A stretch of 64,000 nucleotides of DNA from Steinernema hermaphroditum. Taxonomy: Eukaryota > Nematoda > Chromadorea > Rhabditida > Steinernematidae. Made by a program: the position numbers and the translations under genes. The DNA is taken from the NCBI GenBank assembly GCA_030435675.1, contig CM059623.1, forward strand, positions 15,065,592-15,129,591, given 5' to 3'. This document shows, in pieces, positions 45,981-46,765 of the stretch (position 1 is the stretch's first letter; the number at the start of each line of letters is the position of its first letter). The notes below the pieces were generated by a model. The model was not told the DNA's origin, searched no databases, and worked only from the letters and a program-made list of their open reading frames with translations.

Positions 45981-46765
45981 TTAAAGAAGGCTGGCGAGTT
46001 TTCCGGAGTGATGGGCAGCTACAGTATCGTCTCCGCCACCGATGAATTGGCCGTTGATGAACACTTGAGGCACAGTACGAACTCCAGTGATCTTGTGCAG
46101 ATTGAATTGGATGGCGTCACCTCGTTTGTGCTCATCGAGCTCGATGGCTACGTAGGCGGGCTGATAGTTAGAGAGGGCTACTTTCGCCTTCCTATAATGA
46201 TACGCTTTAGAATGGTGGGCATAGAGAGAATGGATAGAGAGAAGGATATGGATAGGGATAGAGATACACAAACCTGCAGAATGGGCAATACGTCTTGCTG
46301 AAGATGACGATTTTGTTCGTATTGATCGTGTTCCTTACATAGAGCTCCACATCGTTGGCTCCTCCAAGTCGGCCTTCGGCTTCGTCCTCTTGATCCTTCG
46401 CCTCGATCACCTTTTTCCGCTTCTCTTCCTCTTTCATATCCTTGCTTCTAGCTGCATCGGCCTGATACTTCTCTTGGAGCTTCTCTCTCGCACGTTTCAC
46501 GTTATCTCCGTAGACATCATCCATTCGAGAGTCTGGAACATAACCCTAGCGCTAGTCACGCCGTCGAATTTACCAAATTTCTTCTGATTCTCGATCTTCT
46601 TGTTCTCGAAGAACTCAGTGAGAGCCGGAGAGACGAATTTTGAGTAGACGAACGCGGAGATCGCCACGCCGAAGACGATATACCAGCCATAAGACTCGAA
46701 AAAGCTTTGGACTGAAGGAGTTGCCTATTTAGCTACAAAAGTTGACGCAAAAACCTACTTGCCAT
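45981..46765 (-). CDS. Selenoprotein S (VIMP)-like / glutaredoxin fusion
   Basis: Four exons (46765-46759, 46711-46574, 46532-46274, 46191-45981) join in frame to 204 aa. The first 60 residues match the SELENOS membrane region, including SYGWYIVFGVAISAFVYSKF (human: TYGWYIVF...). A charged helix follows (VKRAREKLQEKYQADAARS, then EEEKRKKVIEAK), aligning with the SELENOS coiled coil that binds p97/VCP. The C-terminal 105 residues are a dithiol glutaredoxin: KIVIFSKTYCPFCRKAKVAL with the CPFC active site, the cis-Pro motif GVRTVPQVFINGQFIGGGDD, and a C-terminal helix. SELENOS is an ER-membrane protein of the ERAD pathway whose own redox centre is a Cys/Sec pair in a disordered tail; here a folded glutaredoxin occupies that place. 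No Sec codon is needed. The splice inside the active site (C-P-F-C-R split in the Arg codon) shows both halves are one transcript in this model. Confidence 0.85.

Follow-up and report, generated by a model that had tools for sequence, protein, structure and literature searches.

Among the described systems, vertebrate SELENOS/VIMP (PF06936; PDB 2Q2F, 5KIU, 5KIW, and 5KIY) comes close to the protein reported here in its N-terminal half, with which it shares the “YGWYIVF” N-terminal membrane helix and the charged helix. In the human protein, known from the protein disposal of the cell, this charged helix binds p97, and the residues facing p97 are partly kept in the nematode fusion. The two proteins part ways in what is joined to the helix: vertebrate SELENOS has a disordered tail carrying a Cys and a Sec, whereas the nematode protein has a folded glutaredoxin and no Sec. 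For human SELENOS, the tail is described as facing the cytosol, residues 123–189 as highly disordered, and alanine at R78, L82, R86, M89, L93, or V97 as weakening the binding to p97 (PMC5725882).

The C-terminal half compares best with the class I glutaredoxins (GLRX2 and the algal CPYC type; PDB 4I2T, 3UIW, and 2FLS), with which the whole domain is shared, including CPFC, TVP, and GGGDD; the match to 4I2T reaches 92.5 bits, and the Foldseek probability for class I glutaredoxins is 1.00. Unlike these, the fusion has a membrane anchor, and the second active-site cysteine is a serine in 6 of 22 fused relatives. Yeast Grx6 and Grx7 also belong to the secretory system and combine a glutaredoxin with a membrane anchor, but they are luminal and monothiol. 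Their anchor is not of the SELENOS type, and Grx6 (PDB 3L4N and 5J3R) is a weaker match to the protein described here. Thioredoxin glutathione reductase (PDB 2V6O and 2X99) is likewise a glutaredoxin fused to another redox protein, but there the partner is a flavoenzyme with its own Sec centre, whereas in the nematode fusion the Sec-bearing part is gone. In the Caenorhabditis literature, a single selenoprotein is described for C. elegans and C. briggsae (PMC2375036), and excerpts of a review on redox systems in C. elegans name GLRX-3, GLRX-10, GLRX-21, GLRX-22, ZC334.7, and F10D7.3, the last being called “somewhat similar” to yeast Grx6 and Grx7, with no mention in these excerpts of a SELENOS part (PMC3415087).

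In the window (the whole stretch of 64,000 nucleotides of Steinernema hermaphroditum DNA that we analysed), the fused gene occupies positions 46765–45981 of the minus strand and encodes a product of 204 residues. It has four exons, as was originally predicted, separated by three introns of 47, 41, and 82 bases that are all of the GT-AG type, and the second and third of these lie exactly where they had been placed. The 204-residue translation is 100% identical, over its full length, to S. hermaphroditum QR680_014950 (P0001 in our set, from NCBI/UniRef), so the same splice pattern was reached by another annotation.

Exon and intron layout of the SELENOS–glutaredoxin gene, in positions of the window.
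Feature	Position	Strand	Content	Remarks
Exon 1	46759..46765	-	Start codon and first 7 coding bases	Gene model; same in P0001
Exon 2	46574..46711	-	YGWYIVF membrane helix and beginning of the SELENOS helix, up to residue 49	
Intron 2	46533..46573	-	41 bases, GT-AG	S. carpocapsae alignment gapless over the junction
Exon 3	46274..46532	-	Residues 49–135: charged SELENOS helix, linker, and glutaredoxin start to CPFC	
Intron 3	46192..46273	-	82 bases, GT-AG	
Exon 4	45981..46191	-	Remainder of the glutaredoxin (TVP turn, GGGDD), stop TAA	

Adjoining the fusion gene, also on the minus strand, are two open frames (43679–44188 and 44875–45117) with a near-identical starting peptide (KVLNAAGSDGD...), which represent a local duplication or repeat.

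The fusion of SELENOS and glutaredoxin is real and conserved. A single gene had been predicted to join an N-terminus of SELENOS type to a complete dithiol glutaredoxin, and both parts are borne out by Pfam matches above the curated cut-offs: Selenoprotein_S (PF06936) over residues 3–102 (E = 5.4e-13; 49.7 bits, cut-off 29.8) and Glutaredoxin (PF00462) over residues 123–185 (E = 3e-18; 66.2 bits, cut-off 22.9). The search against profiles, which might have removed SELENOS from residues 1–100, thus leaves it in place. The PF06936 match spans profile positions 29–130 of 192, and its stop at position 130 agrees with the predicted location of the glutaredoxin at the place of the disordered Sec tail of vertebrate SELENOS. 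Charged helices can score through their composition, and the N-terminal part was therefore also searched as separate halves. Selenoprotein_S is the best family for both the membrane half (residues 1–48; 24.3 bits) and the helical half (residues 46–109; 19.1 bits), each under the cut-off when taken alone, and the reversed sequence of residues 1–109 gives no Selenoprotein_S match in Pfam. The match rests on more than coiled-coil composition.

The original prediction was unsure whether other nematodes share this arrangement; searching for PF06936 and PF00462 in one protein shows it to be widespread, with at least 19 two-domain proteins in the database. Fifteen of these come from named nematodes (S. 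hermaphroditum, S. carpocapsae, Bursaphelenchus xylophilus, B. okinawaensis, Ascaris, Toxocara, Cercopithifilaria, Auanema, Mesorhabditis, Heterorhabditis, Ostertagia, Haemonchus, Nippostrongylus, Necator, and Ancylostoma duodenale) and four have no species name; no name from outside the nematodes occurs among the 19. We take the carriers to represent nematode clades III, IV, and V of the usual clade scheme. With the window protein as query, 27 database matches were obtained, and a query alignment built from seven of the fused proteins gave 231, in a search that scored the 7989 candidates with the largest number of shared words; among the best 120 of the 231, at least 18 are annotated by the database itself with PF00462 as well as PF06936. 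No Caenorhabditis protein is found among these best 120, in a search that depends on shared words. As a query, the SELENOS part of the Ascaris protein gave three matches, by which the set gained a two-domain protein of Toxocara canis and a truncated model from Parascaris. The layout is shared by Ancylostoma caninum and Brugia pahangi, whose SELENOS scores are under the cut-off, and in the Pfam copy used Cercopithifilaria is under it too; the relatives under the cut-off in that copy are P0033, P0039, and P0041. The two-domain annotation is already present in the precomputed Pfam column of the database; in the open-licence literature of PubMed Central we found no description of a SELENOS–glutaredoxin fusion. 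The fusion is a SELENOS-domain protein that is itself no selenoprotein and has a folded redox domain where the Sec tail would be. One further model, P0037 from Steinernema glaseri (400 residues), has three membrane segments of the YGW/FGW type and two CPFC glutaredoxin starts, and looks like a tandem duplication of the fusion gene or a mis-assembly.

In the glutaredoxin half, the CPxC active site, the TVP turn, and the GG..D motif are all present (as CPFC, TVP, and IGGGDD), and Cys131 and Cys134 of the CPFC active site are the only cysteines in the window protein. It also has K128, T174-V175-P176, and GGGDD, which we take to be the glutathione-site residues of glutaredoxins. In the AlphaFold2 model, built from 21 sequences, residues 111–200 were averaged in nine blocks of ten, and the mean pLDDT is 92–94 in all but one of these, where it is 84; the pTM of the whole protein is only 0.49. 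The best Foldseek matches are glutaredoxins of Chlorella, Chlamydomonas, zebrafish, and human, some of them with glutathione bound (4i2u and 2fls). With these features, the domain would be expected to have a glutathione-dependent catalytic activity.

The two active-site cysteines are not equally conserved. The first is present in all 22 fused proteins compared, and the second position is cysteine in 16, the carriers of serine being both Bursaphelenchus proteins, Ascaris, Parascaris, Necator, and one protein without a species name. Six truncated or odd models (P0018, P0037, P0042, P0043, P0045, and P0046) were left out of this comparison; each of them has the two cysteines. The two Bursaphelenchus proteins contain no cysteine other than the first of the active site. 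With the first cysteine found in all and the second replaced in some, the monothiol route would, by established glutaredoxin chemistry, be the common denominator of the family.

For the SELENOS half, the counts are over 21 nematode proteins, as the duplicated model P0028 was also left out. All 21 have the hydrophobic stretch after YGW, and in 18 Lys and Arg are more numerous on the C-terminal side of the membrane helix than on its N-terminal side; in the other three, all ascarid, the N-terminal side has the larger number, by one Lys/Arg. The following helix had been described as of the “VCP-binding type,” which holds in part. A HMMER alignment to the human chain in 5KIU, weak (E = 1.4) though without a gap over the helix, places human R78, L82, R86, M89, L93, and V97 at residues 56, 60, 64, 67, 71, and 75 of the window protein (the profile numbers in this alignment are one above these residue numbers). 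What stands are the equivalents of Arg86 and Leu82: residue 64 is arginine and residue 60 is I/L/V/M in 21 of 21 proteins. What does not stand is the equivalent of Arg78, as residue 56 is arginine in none of the 21, and the remaining three (residues 67, 71, and 75, for M89, L93, and V97) vary. Gln68 is found in 20 of the 21. Binding of p97 by the SELENOS-type helix is plausible on this pattern. The AlphaFold2 model has one unbroken helix from residue 2 to residue 100 and lacks the elbow that has been described in human SELENOS; since the model was built from 21 sequences, the missing elbow is weak evidence either way.

The gene ends in a TAA stop codon and contains no Sec codon, and a search of the 2.9 kb around it with Rfam gave no SECIS, the sole match being a sub-threshold snoRNA. 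At the level of sequence, the fusion, its conservation, the intact glutaredoxin site, and the absence of Sec from the window protein are established. Throughout the genome (90,648,085 bases in 60 contigs), two protein probes detected no SELENOS-like locus besides the fusion gene. A search of the whole genome with PF06936 gave no match and missed the fusion gene itself, because the genome was searched exon by exon, and is thus no evidence of absence; the glutaredoxin family has ten matches, the fusion gene among them. A single tRNA-Sec match above the cut-off (77 bits) suggests that the species may still make selenoprotein elsewhere. Twelve further tRNA-Sec matches, all sub-threshold at 37–43 bits, are perhaps serine or leucine tRNA genes.

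Taken together, we would give a probability of roughly 60% to the fusion being a glutathione-dependent reductase that is anchored in the ER and faces the cytosol, with the glutaredoxin in place of the Cys–Sec tail of SELENOS and carried on a p97-docking or scaffold arm. The protein would be anchored by the SELENOS-type N-terminal helix in the ER membrane, with all the rest in the cytosol, and the long charged helix would serve as the scaffold or docking arm for p97, as in SELENOS. The glutaredoxin would use glutathione to deglutathionylate proteins reaching the site, or to reduce their disulfides, with the first cysteine providing the essential chemistry and the second being dispensable in some lineages. 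We infer the ER location, the cytosolic topology, the connection to p97 and ERAD, the catalytic activity, and the functional nature of the replacement, the connection to ERAD being suggested by homology and by partial conservation of the p97 face. In the nematode lineage, the disordered Cys–Sec tail of SELENOS would have given way to the glutaredoxin; that the fusion is common to many related roundworms suggests that a folded enzyme displaced the selenium-containing tail. We advance more tentatively, at somewhat less than even odds, the broader proposal that the capture of a glutaredoxin gave nematodes a functional replacement for the Cys–Sec centre of SELENOS, such that the p97/ERAD receptor of the ER membrane carries its own glutathione-dependent reductase. 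If the proposal is true, the redox step would be indispensable to what SELENOS does. Nematodes in which the SELENOS anchor has stayed joined to a folded thiol enzyme amount to a natural experiment, which suggests that selection kept a thiol–disulfide activity at the SELENOS site.

Several other readings have to be weighed against that of an ER-anchored reductase facing the cytosol. The protein could be a plain membrane-tethered glutaredoxin, at the ER or at another membrane, that has lost p97 binding and has no role in ERAD, as only two of the six positions that face p97 are conserved; the invariant Arg64, the nearly invariant Gln68, and the constant I/L/V/M at residue 60 suggest instead that some contact surface has been kept, and we consider such a tether unlikely. 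It is distinctly less probable that the helix is inserted oppositely and the enzyme lies in the lumen of the ER or Golgi, in the manner of yeast Grx6 and Grx7. A membrane helix precedes the glutaredoxin in Grx6 as it does here, Grx6 structures are among the matches, and the three ascarid proteins are more positive on the N-terminal flank, but the anchor is of the type found in SELENOS, where the tail is cytosolic (PMC5725882), and the flanking charge is that expected for a cytosolic C-terminus in the 18 others. Finally, the gene model is drawn from DNA, the models P0018 and P0043 consist of the glutaredoxin part only, and P0028 and P0037 are duplicated, all of which could be taken to mean that gene prediction merged two genes or transcripts. 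Against this, the boundary between the SELENOS match, ending at residue 102, and the glutaredoxin match, starting at residue 123, falls inside exon 3 in a single continuous open frame, the same domain order recurs in 19 proteins, and P0034 (259 residues on a contig of 957 bases) and P0036 (240 residues on one of 992) hold the entire fused frame, which suggests cDNA. An artificial merger is therefore highly improbable.

The origin of the fused glutaredoxin is a separate matter, and a single origin is possible. The alternative, that the fusion arose repeatedly or that Steinernema swapped its glutaredoxin for that of another subfamily, appears to us improbable, though far from negligible. It draws on the spacing between the first Cys and the T/SVP turn, which is 43 residues in both Steinernema domains versus 46–48 in the other 18 fused proteins, and on the clustering of the Steinernema domains with stand-alone glutaredoxins, with an SH-aLRT of 79 in a quick tree of 114 rows and support of 91/88 in the second of two further trees. 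The first of these, with 44 rows, also favours it, as a single clade for the 20 fused rows is rejected (p-AU 0.0007); in this tree P0060 and P0044, labelled as stand-alone, are short nematode-like pieces placed among the fused rows. The second tree (20 fused rows and 32 others, without P0060 and P0044 and with a changed stand-alone set) does not reject the single clade (p-AU 0.36), and the SELENOS halves of all fused proteins align, both of which speak against repeated origin or exchange. The single clade occurs in 0% of 200 bootstrap trees for the second data set, in a bootstrap that had not settled, and holding the 18 non-Steinernema fused rows together gives a likelihood 4 units above that of the free search (p-AU 0.62). 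These 18 rows also cluster in the 114-row tree, with P0060 and P0044 inside the group (SH-aLRT 91); for this tree, 129 rows had been reduced by eight models that were truncated or duplicated and by seven proteins that lacked the active-site pattern searched for. With the Steinernema glutaredoxin outside the group of the other fusions, a single replacement event is one possibility. A bolder side reading would have the captured glutaredoxin exchanged later, in Steinernema, for one of another subfamily.

Elsewhere in the window, a long series of cysteine-rich open frames runs along the minus strand from 7628 to 38076, probably as at least one large multi-domain gene of the secreted type. On the same strand are a pair of Kunitz domains at 26267–26899 (PF00014, E = 2e-26), a match to the EB module, slightly under the cut-off, at 36811–38076, and a match to Rad9 at 7628–8176 (PF04139, E = 5e-7). 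The plus strand has a MEIOC match at 2883–4397 (PF15189, E = 3e-52) and a helix-loop-helix DNA-binding domain at 57690–58019 (PF00010, E = 9.5e-16), and an I/LWEQ actin-binding domain is found on the minus strand at 59730–60662 (PF01608, E = 1.5e-34).
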